DNA of 64,000 nucleotides from Spirochaetes bacterium GWE1_32_154 (GTDB taxonomy: Bacteria; Spirochaetota; GWE2-31-10). Each line of letters starts with the position of its first letter. The first letter of the stretch is position 1. The stretch lies in NCBI GenBank assembly GCA_001829315.1, contig MIAY01000011.1:1-64000 (forward strand), given 5' to 3'. The notes under the pieces were generated by a model, which was not told where the DNA came from, made no database searches, and saw only the letters and a list, made by a program, of their open reading frames with translations. Positions 36,333 through 44,997 of the stretch are shown here, piece by piece. The translations under genes were made by a program, and so were the position numbers.

Positions 36333-38189
36333 ATGAAAGTTCTTTTTAGCGTGATAATTATTTTATTAAATACAATGTTTTTTTTGTCAGCTCAAAGTTA
36401 CCCCGACTGGGTTTTAACTCCTCCCGTAAATGATAATGAGATTTTTTCTATAGGCATTGCAAGCAGTAAAAACAAACAAATGGGTATAAATTCAGCATCC
36501 AATCTGGCAAGAGCCGAGTTGTCGAGAGTCATTTCAGTTCGTGTTATGAATCAACTCGTTAATATGACAGAAGATTCTAAAGGCATATCATCTTCTGTTT
36601 CAAAAACAGTATCTAATCAGTTGTCAGAATCAATTATGAAAGGTGCGAAGATTTCTCAGGTTTATGAAGATACAAGCTCAAAAATACCGACTTATTATGT
36701 ATTGGTCTCTATTACAATAAATGATTTAAAAGCAAGTTTTTCTGTATTAACTGATGCACGCGCTAAAGAATTATTATCCGGTTCAGGTGATGCGATTAAT
36801 AGTATTGATAAACAGGGTATTGTCGCTAAGGACAGTTCTGTTCAGTCATCTCCTGTTACTGCAAAAACGGTAATGAAAGAGGCTGAACCAAAATCAGGTA
36901 AAAAATTACCGGTGTGGGTTACGAAATTTCCGACATCCACAGAATTTTATATTGGTATAGGCCAGGGAAACTCTATAAAAACAGCTCAGGACGGGGCTAT
37001 GACAATGATTATTTCTCAAATCAGAGCAAAAGTTCAAGCAGAGATGAAAACATTTATGCAAGAGGTGAATGGGGCTACTGAGGAATCATTTTCACAGGTA
37101 ATTAAAATGTCCCTTATGGAAACAGTTGAAGATATTGAATATATCGATGCCTTTTATTCAGAAACTGATTCTGTTTATTATTCATATTACAGATTAAATA
37201 TTGCCGAGTACAAAAGAAAACAAGCTGAGAAAGAAAGGCTTGCCAAAGACAAGGCATTTGATTTACTGAAACGAACTGATACTGAAAAAGATGCGTCTCT
37301 TGCATTAAAACATTTATTAATAGCATATATAACTATTGCACCTTTTATATCAAAAGATATTAGAGTTCAATACAAAGATAATGAAGTTATTCTTGCTAAT
37401 GAACTTATGACTAGAATTCAGAAAATGATGCAAAATATTCAAATAAATACTGAAAAGACAAAGTTTGAGTCAGGATTAATCAATTTTTCTCCGTTGGATA
37501 TTCAATTTAATGTTTCATATTCAGGTGAACCGATGAAATATTTACCTTTTACTTTTTCAAATACAAACGGTAATCTTGATATGATAACAAGAGGCGTTAC
37601 TGATGGAAAGGGTGTAGTAAGAACAATTATTAATTCACCGGGTAAAGGAACAGGGTTAAAAACAGTTAAAATTATGCCGGATATCTTATCATTTATGAAA
37701 GATACAATAGATGAGGAAACTGCCTTTTTATATTTAACAATGATTTCAGGTCTTGGTATGCCTGCACAGGAAGTAACATTGGATGTTAAACCTCCTGTTT
37801 TCTCTCTTGCCGTTTCATTATCAGGAAGCATTGCTGAACATAAAGAACGAGCTGATGTTGCTTTCTCCGAATTTAAAAATGTATTTGAAAAAGTATCCGG
37901 TGCTAAATTTACTGAAAAAGGTGCTGATTTTACTATTAAAGTAATGGTTTTATCAACAACAACATTATCAGATTTGTCAAAACAATATTTTACAAGATTG
38001 ACAGTATCAGTTACTATAATAGACACAAAAAAGAATGAAGAGATTTATTCTAAATCTACACCGGAAATAAAGGGTGGAAATATTTCAGAAGTAAAAGCGA
38101 TGCAAACTGCGATCGAAAAATATATTTCAAGCTACAATACAGATTTTGTAAATGAAATAATGGGTTTCTTTTCATTAGGTAAAAATTAA
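36333..38189 (+). CDS. Exported protein with two LPP20-like domains
   Basis: ATG 36333 suits the AAGGTGG site better than the TTG two codons earlier. 618 residues, signal peptide ending near 'L-S-A-Q'. Two LPP20-like domains: about 22-125 ('Y-P-D-W-V-L-T-P-P', 'S-I-G-I-A') and about 192-300 ('L-P-V-W-V-T-K-F-P', 'Y-I-G-I-G'), the latter followed by a Lys/Glu helix. A beta-sandwich-like middle and a C-terminal domain near 495-610 ('A-D-V-A-F-S-E-F', 'T-I-K-V-M-V-L-S') end it. LPP20 domains occur in outer-membrane lipoproteins and in flagellar FlgP. Function here is unknown. Confidence 0.75.
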   Translation: MKVLFSVIIILLNTMFFLSAQSYPDWVLTPPVNDNEIFSIGIASSKNKQMGINSASNLARAELSRVISVRVMNQLVNMTEDSKGISSSVSKTVSNQLSESIMKGAKISQVYEDTSSKIPTYYVLVSITINDLKASFSVLTDARAKELLSGSGDAINSIDKQGIVAKDSSVQSSPVTAKTVMKEAEPKSGKKLPVWVTKFPTSTEFYIGIGQGNSIKTAQDGAMTMIISQIRAKVQAEMKTFMQEVNGATEESFSQVIKMSLMETVEDIEYIDAFYSETDSVYYSYYRLNIAEYKRKQAEKERLAKDKAFDLLKRTDTEKDASLALKHLLIAYITIAPFISKDIRVQYKDNEVILANELMTRIQKMMQNIQINTEKTKFESGLINFSPLDIQFNVSYSGEPMKYLPFTFSNTNGNLDMITRGVTDGKGVVRTIINSPGKGTGLKTVKIMPDILSFMKDTIDEETAFLYLTMISGLGMPAQEVTLDVKPPVFSLAVSLSGSIAEHKERADVAFSEFKNVFEKVSGAKFTEKGADFTIKVMVLSTTTLSDLSKQYFTRLTVSVTIIDTKKNEEIYSKSTPEIKGGNISEVKAMQTAIEKYISSYNTDFVNEIMGFFSLGKN

Positions 38190-38224
38190 TTTTTTATAAA
38201 TTAAATAATTTTAAGGAGTATTTT

Positions 38225-38833
38225 ATGAAAATGACAAAAGTGTTAGGTTTAATGATGTTAATACTTACTGTATTAACTGTTTCTTCATGTGGTGGTACAA
38301 GTGAGCCAAAAGAAAAAACAATTGCAAATGAAGATCAATCAGTTAATTATCCTGATTGGTTTTTAACGCCTCCAAAAGCTGCTGATGCAATTTATTCTAT
38401 TGGTATTGCACAAAAAGCTACGATGCAACTTTCTATGGATATTGCAACAAGTTCTGCAAGAGATGAAGTATCTAGAGTTGTTGGCGTTAAAGTTTCTAAC
38501 ATGATTAAAAACTTTATGGAACAAGCTGGTGTTAATGAAGAATCTCAATATACTGAGTTCTCTCAAACTGTTTCTAAACAAATTTCTGATAACACGTTAT
38601 CAGGTTCTCAAAGAGAAAAAATGTTTATCGACAACACAACTAAACCACAAACAGTTTATGTTCTTGTTAAATTAAATCTTGCTGATATGTCAGGTTCAAT
38701 TGACGCATTAATGAAAAAACAAGCTGCTGCTTATTCTCAGTTAAGAGCTAATAAAGGATTTGAAGATCTTACAAAAGAACTTCAAAGCTTAAAAGGTGAT
38801 GATGTAGAAACATCAAAAGTTAGAGCTGAGTAA
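38225..38833 (+). CDS. LPP20-family lipoprotein
   Basis: 202 residues, lipoprotein signal (V-S-S-C-G). One LPP20 domain at about 38-160: 'Y-P-D-W-F-L-T-P-P', 'Y-S-I-G-I-A', then helix 'A-R-D-E-V-S-R-V-V-G-V-K-V' and a long strand. It closely parallels the first LPP20 domain of the preceding protein. Codon use is A/T-ending and rather uniform, which suggests high expression. A hairpin terminator follows. Confidence 0.88.
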   Translation: MKMTKVLGLMMLILTVLTVSSCGGTSEPKEKTIANEDQSVNYPDWFLTPPKAADAIYSIGIAQKATMQLSMDIATSSARDEVSRVVGVKVSNMIKNFMEQAGVNEESQYTEFSQTVSKQISDNTLSGSQREKMFIDNTTKPQTVYVLVKLNLADMSGSIDALMKKQAAAYSQLRANKGFEDLTKELQSLKGDDVETSKVRAE

Positions 38834-38839
38834 TACAAT

Positions 38840-38870
38840 TTAAAATCGGGGCTTTTAACCCCGATTTTAA
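38840..38870 (+). terminator. Terminator after the LPP20 lipoprotein gene
   Basis: A 12-bp stem (38840-38851 with 38859-38870) with a GGGG/CCCC core and a 7-base loop; the 3' arm ends in TTTT. It lies between the LPP20 gene and the cyclase and may reduce read-through. Confidence 0.8.
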
Positions 38871-38885
38871 AAAAAAGAGAAAACT

Positions 38886-41186
38886 ATGAATAAAAAATAC
38901 ACACAGATTTTATTGGCTTTATTAATTTTACTTTTTTCTTATACAATAACGCAATTATTCAGCATGTCTGATATTTATGACAGAATCAATAACGGGATTT
39001 ATGATGCTGTTTTTAGAATAACTAAAAATGGTGATAAACGAACGAAAAGTGCCGGAATTGTAGTTATTAATGATTTAGCATTAAATTATATGGAAGAAAA
39101 GTACCAGTATACATGGCCATGGCCAAGATCAGTGTATGGTTTAATGAGTGATTTTTTAATAAGTAAAGGTGCTAAAGCGGTAGTATTTGATGTTGTATTC
39201 AATAATCCTGATTATGACAGAGAGAAGCTAGGTATGACCGGTTATGGAAGTGATAGTTATTTTAAATCGGTTGTCGACAAAACCGGAAAAATTGTTATTG
39301 CATTAAATATAGATGATTCATATGAGAGTCATACAATACCTGATCCAATTACTCAGGAGACATTGCTTGCTATTTATAATTCAGAAAATGATGAAAATAA
39401 GCAACTTATAAAAGATGCGTATCAATTTGATGATAATTATGGTTTTTTCACGGTAAATGCATCTTTTTTAAATGGTGATGACGAAAATAGAAAAAAGTTA
39501 TCTATGGTTATAAATGGTTCTCCATATTTCTATAATCCGACGCAAATTATTTCTGATTATCAGCTACAAAATATTTCAAAATATAATTTTTTACGATTTC
39601 CATATTCAGTTTATGCTCAAAATAATCCATACATGGGATTCGTTGAAAATTATACCGATAGGGATGGTACTATTCGTGAATATAAGCCTATTGTTTCGAT
39701 CAATAAAAGAAAGATTCCTTCCCTTGCTTTAGCCGCATATGTAGTGTCAGAGAAAAAAATGCCGCAAAATCTGTCTTTGTCAAAAAAAGGAAATTTTATT
39801 TTAAAATGGTATGGTCCGGGTGGCATTACAACTGATTCTCAAGGAAATCAGAAAACTAATACAACTTTTGATTATTTTTCGGCACATTATATATTTGATG
39901 CTGCAAGAGAAGAAATTATTATGAAGAGGAAATCAAAGATTCCTGATTCAGATATAAAAGATAGAGTGTTTTTTGTCGGTAATATTTCAAAAGCATTATT
40001 AGATCAAAAAAATACTCCTTTTTCAGCCGGAGGAACAGCATATCCGGGGGTCGAGATTCATGCAACTGGTTTTATTAATATGCTTTATAATGATTATATG
40101 AAAATACCAAATTTTTATTTAGAAATTCTATTGTATCTTATTCCGATTTTCCTTGTTTCATTAACCGGGTTGAAGTCACAAACATTCAAGGTGCATATCT
40201 TTTTTGTATTGTTTGTATTGTTTGTTATATTGTTTATGCAGTTTATTTTGTTCAAAAACTATAATATGATTTGTAACACAACATATTTTATGTTGCTTAT
40301 ACTATTTTCAATTATTTTTGCTTTATCGCTCAATTATATCATTGTTGGTAAAAACAGAAATTTAATTAAAAATGCACTTGGAATGTATATATCTCCCGCA
40401 CTTGAACGTGAAATCACAGCATCGGGCAAACCTTTAGCTATAACCGGAGAATCTGTTATTGCTACGGCGATGTTTATTGATATTGCAGGCTTTACAACAT
40501 TTTCCGAGAAAAACACGGCAAGTAAAGTCGTTGAAATATTAAATGTGTATTTAAATGTTTTTTCAGAATATATTATGAATAAATTCGGATTTGTTAATAA
40601 ATTTCTTGGTGATGGGTTAATGGCCTTATTTGGAACAATAACTCCATTAGAAAATCATGCAGATTTAGCATTGGATTCTGCAATTGAATGTTTAAATAAA
40701 ACAGAGGAATTAAATCCTCAATTTGGTTTGGATATACGAATTGGGATAAATTCCGGAGAAATGATTAAAGGCAATATGGGTGGTGCTAAACGGTTGGAAT
40801 TTACAGCAATTGGTGACAATGTGAATTTGGCAAGTCGTTTGGAAGGGGCTAATAAATTCTTTGGTACAAAGATAATTCTTGGTGAAAACTCGTATGATAG
40901 TTTGAAAAACAGCGAACATATTTCAAATATATTATTTTTAGGTCGATTTTGTGTTAAAGGAAAAGCAATTCCGATACGTTTTTATGCATATTATAATCTC
41001 GAAAAGGAGGAAAAAGACAGATTTTCTAATTTTTTAGATGTATATTATAATAAAGATAAAGCAGGTTTTGAAAAATTAATGGAGTATTACAAAGTTAATA
41101 GATTTAAGCCGGCTGATATATATATTGAACATTATTTAACAGAGCCTGATGAGTTTGGTATGCCTATAAAGTTTACAGAAAAATAA
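38886..41186 (+). CDS. CHASE2-domain membrane adenylate/guanylate cyclase
   Basis: 766 residues. One N-terminal membrane helix, an extracytoplasmic CHASE2 sensor (about 30-395, with 'W-P-W-P-R-S-V-Y' and 'V-F-D-V-V-F' motifs), three closely spaced membrane helices (about 415-495), then a class III cyclase domain. The cyclase has metal-binding 'F-I-D-I-A-G-F-T', 'L-G-D-G-L-M-A-L-F-G' and 'I-G-D-N-V-N-L-A-S-R-L'. It should make a cyclic nucleotide in response to an envelope signal. This architecture is common in spirochaetes. Neighbours are LPP20 and protease genes, so the signal may concern envelope state (inference). Confidence 0.92.
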   Translation: MNKKYTQILLALLILLFSYTITQLFSMSDIYDRINNGIYDAVFRITKNGDKRTKSAGIVVINDLALNYMEEKYQYTWPWPRSVYGLMSDFLISKGAKAVVFDVVFNNPDYDREKLGMTGYGSDSYFKSVVDKTGKIVIALNIDDSYESHTIPDPITQETLLAIYNSENDENKQLIKDAYQFDDNYGFFTVNASFLNGDDENRKKLSMVINGSPYFYNPTQIISDYQLQNISKYNFLRFPYSVYAQNNPYMGFVENYTDRDGTIREYKPIVSINKRKIPSLALAAYVVSEKKMPQNLSLSKKGNFILKWYGPGGITTDSQGNQKTNTTFDYFSAHYIFDAAREEIIMKRKSKIPDSDIKDRVFFVGNISKALLDQKNTPFSAGGTAYPGVEIHATGFINMLYNDYMKIPNFYLEILLYLIPIFLVSLTGLKSQTFKVHIFFVLFVLFVILFMQFILFKNYNMICNTTYFMLLILFSIIFALSLNYIIVGKNRNLIKNALGMYISPALEREITASGKPLAITGESVIATAMFIDIAGFTTFSEKNTASKVVEILNVYLNVFSEYIMNKFGFVNKFLGDGLMALFGTITPLENHADLALDSAIECLNKTEELNPQFGLDIRIGINSGEMIKGNMGGAKRLEFTAIGDNVNLASRLEGANKFFGTKIILGENSYDSLKNSEHISNILFLGRFCVKGKAIPIRFYAYYNLEKEEKDRFSNFLDVYYNKDKAGFEKLMEYYKVNRFKPADIYIEHYLTEPDEFGMPIKFTEK

Positions 41187-41201
41187 TAATTGGAGGATAT
41201 T

Positions 41202-42374
41202 ATGAACAAAAAAATTTATTTAATAACATTACTAATGTTGGTGACGGCAGGTTTATTTGCAGAATCAATAACGATAAATAGGGATAAAACACCATTAAAA
41301 AATGGTCCCGGTGCATTTTATGAAAATCTCGTTTTTTTACAATTGAATACGACGGTTGAGAATCTTGGTCCTGCAAGTGAAGATGACGGTTGGTTAAAAG
41401 TTTCTTTTAAAGGACTTGTCGATAACAAAAAGTCAGATATAACAGGCTATCTTTCAAGATTGTCAATATCCGAAAAAAAAGCATCAAAAGATCCATTTGA
41501 TTCATTAAGAAGCGATTCTATTTCCGGTGGTAGTGCTAAGAATCAAATTGCTCCAGGTTCATATACAGCGGCCATAAAAGGTTTTCTACAAAATTATTCA
41601 AGTAAAAATAAATATACAACATATTCTTATGAAGATATATATTCATTTACCAGCTTCACTAACAAAGATTATTTCCAGATAAAAGGTAAAGTTAATTTAT
41701 CATATTTTCCAAAACGAGGCGAGTTATTAGGTTTAGATAGAACTCATATAACTGAATCAATGGAAGCTTTATCAGGTGCGATAGTACTTAATGCAGTTAG
41801 TAAACATGAACTGGTAAGAAGTTCTGAATCAGTTAAAGTAAATGTTATTGCTAATGTTTTAAGCCGTCAAACGATAGATTATGATAAACAATATTTTGTC
41901 TGGATCGTTAGAAATAAAGAACCGTTTGCTTTTTCAGGACCTGGTGGTGCTATTTTTATAAGTGACGGTATGATAAAACTATTAAATGATGATAAAGAAG
42001 TTATTGCTGTAATAGGTCATGAAATTGGACATATAGCAATGCGTCATGGAATAAGAGATATAGCATTAGAGCAGGCAAGAAAAAATATGGAAGCATCATT
42101 TGATGAACTTGATGAGTCATTAGATTCAGATTATGCAGCTATTTCTGAAGATTTAGAAGATATTATTGGGGATGCATTAAAAGCAGCTGCTTTAGTTAGA
42201 GATGATATTCAGGAATTTGAGGCGGATGATATTTCTATGGAGTTGTTAAGAAGATATAGAATAGAACGAAAATATCTTGCATCTGCATTAGGTAAAGTTT
42301 TTAATAATTTAAATGCTGATAGCATGAACGAATATAAATTACAAACTCAAAGAAGGTTAGCAAGGGTTAAATAA
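41202..42374 (+). CDS. M48-family metalloprotease with N-terminal SH3-like domain
   Basis: The start is ATG 41202 after GGAGG; the TTG at 41190 lies in that site. 390 residues, signal peptide (L-F-A-E). Residues about 20-90 are a bacterial SH3 domain ('L-K-N-G-P-G-A-F-Y-E-N'). The M48 domain has the zinc motif 'H-E-I-G-H' followed by 'I-A-M-R-H-G', and a downstream 'E-A-D' as third ligand. This resembles BepA/LoiP-type periplasmic proteases that clear misfolded outer-membrane proteins. The next gene starts two bases after its stop. Confidence 0.88.
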   Translation: MNKKIYLITLLMLVTAGLFAESITINRDKTPLKNGPGAFYENLVFLQLNTTVENLGPASEDDGWLKVSFKGLVDNKKSDITGYLSRLSISEKKASKDPFDSLRSDSISGGSAKNQIAPGSYTAAIKGFLQNYSSKNKYTTYSYEDIYSFTSFTNKDYFQIKGKVNLSYFPKRGELLGLDRTHITESMEALSGAIVLNAVSKHELVRSSESVKVNVIANVLSRQTIDYDKQYFVWIVRNKEPFAFSGPGGAIFISDGMIKLLNDDKEVIAVIGHEIGHIAMRHGIRDIALEQARKNMEASFDELDESLDSDYAAISEDLEDIIGDALKAAALVRDDIQEFEADDISMELLRRYRIERKYLASALGKVFNNLNADSMNEYKLQTQRRLARVK

Positions 42375-42376
42375 GA

Positions 42377-43162
42377 ATGAAAAATCCGAAACAGTTTTTT
42401 ATGATTGTTTGTTTTATATCAGCTGTTGTTATTCTATTTTCAACTGAAAAAATAAATAACTTGGAACTGTTTAATACAATTGGGTATCAAGATGGATTTG
42501 TTTATTTTTCTGTCTTGAATCCTGTTTATGTAGGAGAAGATAAAGACGAAAAATTGATTTTTAATGCAGCTAAGGAAGTTGCTAAGTTTTTATCTATTGA
42601 TTTAGCATATAATTCTTCTGCATACCCGATAGGGTCTTTTTATTTAAATAATAATACAATTTTTGTTGATTATAATACAGATTTAATTGCTGAGGTTTTA
42701 CCTTATATTAAAGTGACATTACCAAAGAAACTTGATTTTGGAACCGTTTCAGCTGTAAAAATATCAACTTCAAGTATTAATGAACTATGGAATAAAGTTA
42801 ACTCAAGTAATTATCCTGATTATAGCGATATTATTTCTTTTGTTAACACAAATTATCCGGAATGGTTTTATAATTTACCAACTAAGTCGGGCTATATTTT
42901 TGGATTAGGAATTTCGGATGATATGTCTAATTTAGAAAAAAAGTTTGAAATGTCTGATTATCGTTCAATGGTTGATGCAATTAATACATTGTCGATTAAA
43001 GTTTCAAATGAACTTAATCGTTATGACAGTAGATATTTAAATTTATATAATTTATTTAGTTCTCAGTCATCAAGGGCATCTATTTCTGGTATTAAAATAA
43101 TTAAAAGATATTATTTAGAAGAATATGGTTTATCCTTTAGTCTATCAGTTTTGAGGTTATAA
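42377..43162 (+). CDS. Exported LPP20-like protein
   Basis: 261 residues with an N-terminal hydrophobic signal. The C-terminal half has 'Y-P-E-W-F-Y-N-L-P' and 'Y-I-F-G-L-G-I-S', the same layout as the LPP20 domains of the 36333 and 38225 products, but diverged. The N-terminal half is not recognised. It overlaps the next gene (TAATG). Confidence 0.6.
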   Translation: MKNPKQFFMIVCFISAVVILFSTEKINNLELFNTIGYQDGFVYFSVLNPVYVGEDKDEKLIFNAAKEVAKFLSIDLAYNSSAYPIGSFYLNNNTIFVDYNTDLIAEVLPYIKVTLPKKLDFGTVSAVKISTSSINELWNKVNSSNYPDYSDIISFVNTNYPEWFYNLPTKSGYIFGLGISDDMSNLEKKFEMSDYRSMVDAINTLSIKVSNELNRYDSRYLNLYNLFSSQSSRASISGIKIIKRYYLEEYGLSFSLSVLRL

Positions 43163-43737
43163 TGAAAATAAAATTGTTTTTAGTCGTCACTTTCTTATTG
43201 TTTTTAATTTTTTCCTGTAAAAAAACTACTCATGAAATCGATGAAAAATTAATTGTTTTTGAACAAAAGATGGATGTTTCTGATTTTGTTAAGGAAGCTA
43301 CAGGGTATTCATATTTTACTATGAAGAATCAGGCATTTGCTATGTCAAAAGCAAATGATATGATATATGATCAGATCGTTTCTTCAAAATATACTATCTC
43401 TAATGGCAAGGTTTCCGTTAAAAGGGATAATTTTTTTGATAATGTAATAGTATTTGAAGAGAAAAATATTCCGGTTAGTAATGGTCATTTTTTTAAAGAA
43501 ATAAAAGTTAAACATAAATCATTAGATCTTCAAACTATTGAAAATTCAAAAATAAACGTAACTGGCGCTTCAAAAACTTTGCAATCTGCGTATAGAAATG
43601 CACTGATTGATGCAGTTAAGCAGTTTACCTCAACCTCAAAGATTGATTCCGGAAAACTTATTGTCAGTAAAGTCTCAAATTGTAATTTCAAAAATAATGT
43701 ATTTTCTATTGATTTAGAAGTTGCATTCTTTAAATGA
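43162..43737 (+). CDS. Hypothetical lipoprotein, LPP20-cluster member
   Basis: 191 residues, lipoprotein signal (I-F-S-C-K). The fold looks like alternating strands and an 'S-A-Y-R-N-A-L-I-D-A-V-K-Q-F' helix similar to the helix of LPP20 domains, without the W-x-x-x-P-P start. Its 3' end overlaps the convergent hydrolase gene by 24 bases. Function unknown. Confidence 0.6.
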   Translation: MKIKLFLVVTFLLFLIFSCKKTTHEIDEKLIVFEQKMDVSDFVKEATGYSYFTMKNQAFAMSKANDMIYDQIVSSKYTISNGKVSVKRDNFFDNVIVFEEKNIPVSNGHFFKEIKVKHKSLDLQTIENSKINVTGASKTLQSAYRNALIDAVKQFTSTSKIDSGKLIVSKVSNCNFKNNVFSIDLEVAFFK

Positions 43738-44997
43738 TGAATTAAGATTTTTATATACATCATCATAAATAGTAACTATTCCGCAGTTATTATTTTCTCC
43801 GTCAGCCATATTTCTACCGTTTTTTGGTTGATCCATCCATTTGAAGATATGGTAACCAATTATGTAGTCAGTAGACATAAAAGATTTGATTTCCTTTTCA
43901 AACGCTTTTGCACGACATTTTTCAGTGAAATATACGGGGAAAATAAATGGTTTTGTTGATGGGGCATTTTTAGTTTTACCTCGAAAACCGAATTCAGTTA
44001 TTAACAAAGGTTTACCTGATAGTTGATAAAATTCTTTTAAATAATTATCAGTTTTGGTATAGTTTAGAAAATAAGGTAAAGTTTTATCTAAATCTAAAAT
44101 CAATTGATAATAATTGATTGAGATAACATCACAATAGTAACTTGATGCTATAACAACTTCTTTTGGTGTTACTGCACCAATAAATCGGGAACCTAAAATA
44201 AGGTGATTATTATCTATTTCACGAATAATATCTGTTGTTACCTGATAATATTTTGAGGCAATGTGGGTTAGTATTGTTTTTTCTGCCCGTTTTCCATATA
44301 TTGAATTACTTTTAAATTTTTGATAACTAAGAGCAGATTCCCAGTCTTTTAGATTCACAAACCATTCTGAATTAAATTTTTTTATATCACTATTATAATA
44401 TTTTTGGAAAAATGAAATGATCGCTTTTTTTCCATAGGCATTTTCATTCATATTAAGGTAATCAAAAACAATGGTTTTCATACTTCGCCAATCAATTCCC
44501 CATCGTAACTCATTTCCGATACAATAGCCGATAAGTTTTTTGTTGTTGATTAAATTACGGTCGGTTATTTCCTGATTTATGTGTTTACGGGATTCTTCTT
44601 CAAAACGTGGTGAAAAATAATCATCGATAGCTCCTGAACTCCAATCATTTGAACCGGGGTATAGAATGTATATGAAATACATAGAGTCAAAATACTCATA
44701 GTTACTCCATGCACCAATTGTATTAAAACCCATTTCAGACATTCTGTCTGAAGTTGTTTGAGCCCATGCTTTGTAGTCCTGATACTTTAACTTAATTGTT
44801 TCATTATAAGTATCTTTTAATGTTTTTTTATCGATATCACCATTAATATTAACCTGGTTGATTCCTCTTGAAATAAAAGGTTCACCATTTTCATTGATGA
44901 AAAACCATTTGTCATTGATTTTGTTTACAGTTACAAAACAATGAGCAAAAAATGAAATGTTTAAAATAACAATGATAAAAAATGATAATGATTTCAT
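43714..44997 (-). CDS. Exported clan GH-A-like glycoside hydrolase
   Basis: 427 residues, signal peptide, AAGGA ribosome site. The pattern is that of a GH-A barrel: 'F-I-S-R-G-I-N' first strand, 'M-G-F-N-T-I-G-A-W' second strand, acid/base 'G-N-E163', nucleophile 'L-L-I-T-E335-F-G'. It resembles GH5/agarase-type enzymes; the substrate cannot be set. It is the last gene of the minus-strand glycan group but lies beyond the hairpin at 45014, so it may be expressed separately. It overlaps the convergent lipoprotein gene. Confidence 0.8.
   Translation of the reverse strand: MKSLSFFIIVILNISFFAHCFVTVNKINDKWFFINENGEPFISRGINQVNINGDIDKKTLKDTYNETIKLKYQDYKAWAQTTSDRMSEMGFNTIGAWSNYEYFDSMYFIYILYPGSNDWSSGAIDDYFSPRFEEESRKHINQEITDRNLINNKKLIGYCIGNELRWGIDWRSMKTIVFDYLNMNENAYGKKAIISFFQKYYNSDIKKFNSEWFVNLKDWESALSYQKFKSNSIYGKRAEKTILTHIASKYYQVTTDIIREIDNNHLILGSRFIGAVTPKEVVIASSYYCDVISINYYQLILDLDKTLPYFLNYTKTDNYLKEFYQLSGKPLLITEFGFRGKTKNAPSTKPFIFPVYFTEKCRAKAFEKEIKSFMSTDYIIGYHIFKWMDQPKNGRNMADGENNNCGIVTIYDDVYKNLNSSFKECNF

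Follow-up and report, generated by a model that had tools for sequence, protein, structure and literature searches.

A conserved cluster of LPP20-type protein, CHASE2 adenylate cyclase and SH3-M48 protease genes in Spirochaetota and Bacteroidota, a candidate envelope-surveillance module

CHASE2 cyclases of Sinorhizobium are activated through an outer-membrane protein, NsrA (PMC13001267), and CHASE2 ligands are described as largely unknown (PMC5192318). The M48 protease BepA of E. coli acts in outer-membrane quality control (PMC7950410, PMC8423444). The LPP20-type protein FlgP builds concentric rings, and FlgQ is similar to a repeat of two FlgP units (PMC12222027). Proteins of these three kinds are encoded side by side in the stretch of DNA analysed here, positions 1 to 64,000 of contig MIAY01000011.1 from Spirochaetes bacterium GWE1_32_154, hereafter called the window. 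Six co-directional open reading frames (ORFs) occupy positions 36333-43737 of the + strand, in the order and at the coordinates given in an earlier note on this DNA. They are preceded by argG and argH, and the next genes downstream of 43737 are located on the opposite strand. Five of the six, encoding LPP1, LPP2, the CHASE2 cyclase, SH3-M48 and LPP3, make up a conserved set, which we read, with a little less than an even chance of being right, as a conserved envelope-surveillance module with cyclic AMP (cAMP) output. The features of the cluster are the following.

36333-38189, + strand: LPP1, secreted; two LPP20 (SHS2-like) domains, alpha/beta domain at the C terminus
38225-38833, + strand: LPP2, single-domain lipoprotein, probably of the LPP20 family, lipobox Cys22
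38837-38873, + strand: terminator- or attenuator-like hairpin between LPP2 and the cyclase gene, 13 bp, -17.0 kcal/mol
38886-41186, + strand: predicted CHASE2 adenylate cyclase (class IIIb-type residues), with N-terminal transmembrane (TM) segment, periplasmic CHASE2, three TM segments and cytoplasmic cyclase domain
41202-42374, + strand: SH3-M48, secreted zinc metalloprotease whose N terminus carries a putative bacterial SH3-like domain; a TTG at 41190 is an alternative start
42377-43162, + strand: LPP3, divergent, with C-terminal LPP20 domain
43162-43737, + strand: orphan small lipoprotein (sixth gene), no Pfam match

Each part has known counterparts, from which it also departs. CyaD1, CyaD2 and CyaK/NsrA/Clr of S. 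meliloti similarly involve CHASE2-type cyclases, with a cAMP output dependent on an outer-membrane protein. NsrA is however a beta-barrel and not an LPP20 protein, the signal is a plant protein, and no linked M48 is named in the accessible part of the source (PMC13001267). A CHASE2 sensor gene is found beside that of an exported (LysM/FecR) partner also in the FecR-CHASE2 histidine kinase biofilm operon of Burkholderia, but the output is phosphotransfer, and neither LPP20 nor M48 is mentioned in the accessible part of PMC5192318. The window protease shares with E. coli BepA and LoiP a secreted zinc protease domain, with HExxH and an additional Glu (PMC7950410, PMC8423444), and differs from both in the SH3-like domain predicted at its N terminus; a TPR of the BepA type was not detected in it. 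LPP20/SHS2 domains, and a lipoprotein with multi-domain paralogues nearby, are features of H. pylori Lpp20/HP1454 and Campylobacter FlgP/FlgQ as well (PMC11756786, PMC12222027). In contrast to these, LPP20 genes in the window neighbour those of a cyclase and a protease, and no flagellar context was seen.

The location and chemistry of the parts suggest an LPP20 layer in the outer envelope, a periplasmic protease acting on the layer, and a cyclase reporting on it as cAMP. LPP1, LPP2 and LPP3, all of the LPP20 fold, would form a layer or complex at the outer membrane or in the periplasm. SH3-M48, probably held at the peptidoglycan via its SH3 domain, would trim or remove misassembled LPP20 proteins. 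The inner-membrane CHASE2 cyclase would read the state of the layer through contact with an LPP20 protein or a cleavage product, and the cAMP produced would act via the many cyclic-nucleotide-binding (cNMP-binding) regulators of the cell; 29 matches to cNMP-binding domains were counted in the source genome. The earlier note had proposed an envelope sensing and quality-control module involving a cyclic nucleotide, a reasonable reading given the recurrence of the set in the order and in Bacteroidota. We infer that LPP20 proteins are the substrate of M48, that they contact CHASE2 and are actually sensed by it, and the sign and direction of the response. Worded in full, as trans-envelope signalling in which the CHASE2 cyclase is controlled by LPP20 proteins and by the cutting of these by SH3-M48 as their dedicated protease, outer-envelope integrity setting cAMP in Spirochaetota and Bacteroidota, the proposal is tentative and more doubtful than surveillance as such.

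The earlier note was to be abandoned if no conserved neighbourhood existed in related genomes. This was not the case: parts of the set recur within the order, and its recurrence in Bacteroidota is striking. A full-length SH3-M48 profile was searched against 346 Bacteroidota genomes, and 22 of them carry the protein. All 22 encode CHASE2, and in 18 a CHASE2 gene is located within 2 kb of SH3-M48 (0.09 expected), always upstream and on the same strand; the two genes frequently overlap. LPP20 was identified by Pfam in 21 of the 22 genomes versus 42/346 overall (Fisher p 5e-21), and among CHASE2-bearing Bacteroidota in 21/22 with SH3-M48 versus 16/100 (p 1e-12). In eight of the 22 an LPP20 gene recognized by Pfam lies within 15 kb of SH3-M48 (expected 0.4, p 3e-9), and relatives of LPP2/LPP3 were detected by profile near the pair in loci L152 and L154. 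Locus L082 is organized as cyclase-(PDDEXK)-M48-PQQ propeller-MltC-LPP1-PrsW-x-LPP2-LPP3, with cyclase, SH3-M48 and the three LPPs within 13 kb. Genes related to the cell wall or the outer membrane (MltC, NlpC/P60, CsgG/LpoB, BamB-like PQQ) flank the set. The PDDEXK_3-family gene inserted between cyclase and M48 (L082:4382-4777) was found in one Bacteroidota lineage. In three Bacteroidota (L142, L144 and L145), the genes upstream of SH3-M48 are instead fusions of the DnaJ-WD40 type, along with a 2-hydroxyacid dehydrogenase gene that was checked in L144 and L145.

The cyclase and M48 genes, often overlapping, are much more tightly linked to each other (18/22) than to LPP20 (8/22 within 15 kb). 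This would fit a functional pair made of these two alone, in which the protease cuts CHASE2 or its ligand and switches the cyclase, LPP20 belonging to an envelope system of its own, found at the same locus in some lineages. We regard such a restricted pair as rather unlikely. The co-occurrence with LPP20 is strong even within CHASE2 genomes, both phyla show LPP20 linkage, and M48 proteases of other kinds adjoin LPP20 genes in the absence of this cyclase.

Relatives examined within the order include the Spirochaetes metagenome-assembled genomes (MAGs) GWB1_27_13 and ADurb.Bin133. Full-length SH3-M48 was found in five genomes of the order (G000, the source genome, G001, G005, G006 and G007), and the cyclase was seen in the same five. 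LPP1-LPP2-cyclase-M48-LPP3 are retained across two contigs in G006, followed by an NlpC/P60-like gene, and the order is cyclase-M48-LPP2-LPP3 in G001. G005 features argH-LPP1-LPP2-LPP3-another LPP-cyclase, with M48 on a separate contig next to an NlpC/P60-like gene, and parts of the set are retained at contig ends in G007 and G008. Orthologues of SH3-M48 were not found in the sampled Spirochaetota outside the order, where matches correspond to generic M48 domains. In MAG GWB1_27_13 a gene for a CsgG/LpoB-type protein lies directly upstream of LPP1 (L078:8655-9725), and NlpC/P60- or CHAP-like cell-wall hydrolase genes are found beside SH3-M48 or LPP3 in two loci (L071:9996-10766, L034:9065-9757).

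Of 393 Spirochaetota genomes, 112 have LPP20, frequently as pairs or triplets of neighbouring genes. In two loci from another Spirochaetota family (L093:5547-9391, L094:3961-7422) a LoiP-sized M48 lacking SH3 adjoins LPP1/LPP2(/LPP3), an independent case of such linkage, and in L093 a CsgG-like gene comes after the LPP20/M48 genes. A second, different M48 protease gene (L140:5191-6156) is found right behind LPP3 in a locus already carrying SH3-M48. Since M48 genes other than SH3-M48 lie next to LPP20 in L093, L094 and L140, the M48-LPP20 linkage arose or persisted more than once. The LPP20 array predates the cyclase-SH3-M48 pair or is more widely distributed. LPP20 arrays lacking both cyclase and M48 in many Spirochaetota would agree with a structural outer-membrane assembly (rings or sheets, FlgP-like), in which M48 is an assembly or quality-control factor and the cyclase, merely co-regulated, senses nothing. 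The rings of FlgP, and the likeness of FlgQ to a double FlgP (PMC12222027), which single-domain LPP2 and multi-domain LPP1 recall, point the same way. A purely structural assembly leaves the near-fixed pairing of cyclase and M48 unexplained, and is in our opinion unlikely.

Several observations weigh against the surveillance module. Co-occurrence counts and p values given above ignore the relatedness of genomes, and 12 of the 22 Bacteroidota have no LPP20 gene, by Pfam or by profile, near the cyclase-M48 pair. LPP20 clusters occur in many Spirochaetota without SH3-M48 (112 genomes versus 5), and thus LPP20 proteins do not need this protease. The hairpin after LPP2 speaks against one transcript, and a single tight operon is doubtful. 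The close spacing reported by the earlier note is real, the gaps across the six genes being in order 35, 52, 15, 2 and -1 bp, but with a 13-bp hairpin after LPP2 it does not imply a single transcript. The T-run of the hairpin on the + strand is short, so that termination is likely, not certain. Strong hairpins, unrelated in sequence, are found 3' of LPP2 in most of 14 loci (the window and 13 others) of both phyla. The cluster is probably made up of more than one transcription unit, and the LPP2 product may be in excess over those of the downstream genes. Promoter-like sites are not more frequent than in shuffled sequences.

Flagellar accessory proteins of the FlgP/FlgT kind are a very improbable identity for the LPP20 proteins. 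The LPP20 fold is common to FlgP, FlgT and H. pylori Lpp20 (PMC12222027, PMC11756786). However, no flagellar family was identified among the neighbour genes run against Pfam. Spirochaete flagella are periplasmic, and most Bacteroidota have no flagella, which also counts against this identity. Chance or frozen synteny without functional linkage is scarcely credible. It is true that argH, too, keeps its place next to LPP1 in four of the order's genomes, so that some neighbours are kept by synteny alone. But the same pair and set recur in another phylum, among other flanking genes, and the pair is adjacent in 18 genomes against 0.09 expected.

The window cyclase matches the Pfam families CHASE2 (114.5 bits, cut-off 26.3) and Guanylate_cyc (76.4 bits). 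TM-like segments at residues 6-28, 407-430, 429-463 and 460-490 flank the CHASE2 region (29-406), as in a CHASE2 receptor. As one segment precedes CHASE2 and three follow it, the sensor is predicted to face the periplasm, in agreement with the earlier note. Residues D532, K572, D576, T640, N647 and R651 are identical in 43/43 CHASE2 cyclases covering them, and mark the protein as a predicted class III adenylate cyclase. We take D532 and D576 to be the two metal Asp, K572 and T640 the adenine-specifying Lys and Thr, N647 and R651 the transition-state Asn and Arg. Against the family profile, M48-linked cyclases score at least 440 bits and other CHASE2 cyclases in the same genomes at most 393 bits. 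The high-scoring subtype is located elsewhere (568-588 bits) in the four Bacteroidota genomes lacking the adjacent pair. M48-associated and other cyclases are split on one branch of the cyclase tree, with weak branch support (33%), which is compatible with, but does not prove, a single origin. Two further CHASE2 frames are carried by the contig of the window (G000:C11:100561-104553; L004, L005); the second, in which stop codons occur, is perhaps a copy in decay.

The protease has an M48 domain (Pfam 62.3 bits, E 6.7e-17) behind a signal peptide, as expected of the exported enzyme that had been predicted. H273-E274-xx-H277, E338 and D342, corresponding to HExxH and the Glu ligand of ExxxD, are identical in 23/23 family members. 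The SH3 domain that had also been claimed has no Pfam match in the window copy, but the profile of the SH3-M48 family matches solved bacterial SH3 domains (E 6e-5 and 4e-4), and a Bacteroidota orthologue matches SH3_3 (E 1e-5, 26.0 bits, cut-off 27). Family profile and orthologue together indicate that the N terminus is plausibly SH3-like. The protein scores far under the NCBIfam equivalog or exception cut-offs for LoiP (51.4 bits, cut-off 365) and BepA (28.9 bits, cut-off 570).

Of the four LPP20-like proteins originally proposed, LPP1 is confirmed, LPP2 and LPP3 are confirmed in part, and the product of the sixth gene is not confirmed. LPP1 (618 amino acids) matches Pfam LPP20 (PF02169) in two stretches (57.3 bits, cut-off 25.9, E 2.2e-15). 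Its LPP20 domains span about residues 24-127 and 187-290, and it also has a linker composed of helices and a beta-sandwich, and an alpha/beta domain at the C terminus. Its AlphaFold model is of usable confidence (mean pLDDT, the predicted local distance difference test score, 79.6) and retrieves with Foldseek the structures of HpaA (8t8d), GNA1162 (4hrv), HP1454 (4kzs), CsgG (4uv2) and PelC (5t11). TM-scores are modest, and so the resemblance of the modelled C-terminal domain to the outer-membrane lipoproteins HpaA, GNA1162, PelC and CsgG would indicate a fold class, not a function. By sequence, the only match of LPP1 among solved structures is a weak one to HP1454 (4kzs, E 0.014), and LPP2 has no relative among them. 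LPP2 scores 23.6 bits with Pfam LPP20 (E 7e-5), just below the cut-off of 25.9, and its orthologues belong to the family, that in L097 scoring 39.1 bits; the lipobox Cys22 is invariant in 8 orthologues. LPP3 itself has no Pfam match. It is assigned to the LPP20 family because hhalign matches its family profile to that of LPP2 (probability 95.8%, E 6.6e-9) and orthologues exceed the Pfam cut-off, a Bacteroidota one with 48 bits. The N-terminal half of LPP3 may be a second, degenerate LPP20 copy. When the sixth gene (43162-43737) was compared to LPP20 profiles by hhalign, the signal peptide alone aligned (11-17% probability); the gene has no orthologue within the order, and its AlphaFold model (pLDDT 36) is uninformative. 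Another LPP20-domain protein is encoded in the same genome outside the cluster (G000:C8:52353-52676; L102:7141-8637).

Each part comes from a known family, while their combination, and its conservation in two phyla, appear undescribed, as had been supposed. Searches of open-access papers returned none in which CHASE2 is combined with LPP20, or with adenylate cyclase and M48. What LPP20 proteins do outside flagella is largely unknown, and a conserved set of partners provides direct candidates both for these roles and for CHASE2 ligands. Whether envelope damage controls cAMP in these phyla becomes a question for a few gene-deletion tests. A protease paired with a cyclase would offer another way of responding to envelope stress than the sigma factors and two-component systems known from Proteobacteria.

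Viral relatives were looked for, and none appeared. Converging on the cluster from the - strand (43714-44997) is a gene for a secreted protein of 427 amino acids, which has no Pfam match and looks like a glycoside hydrolase.

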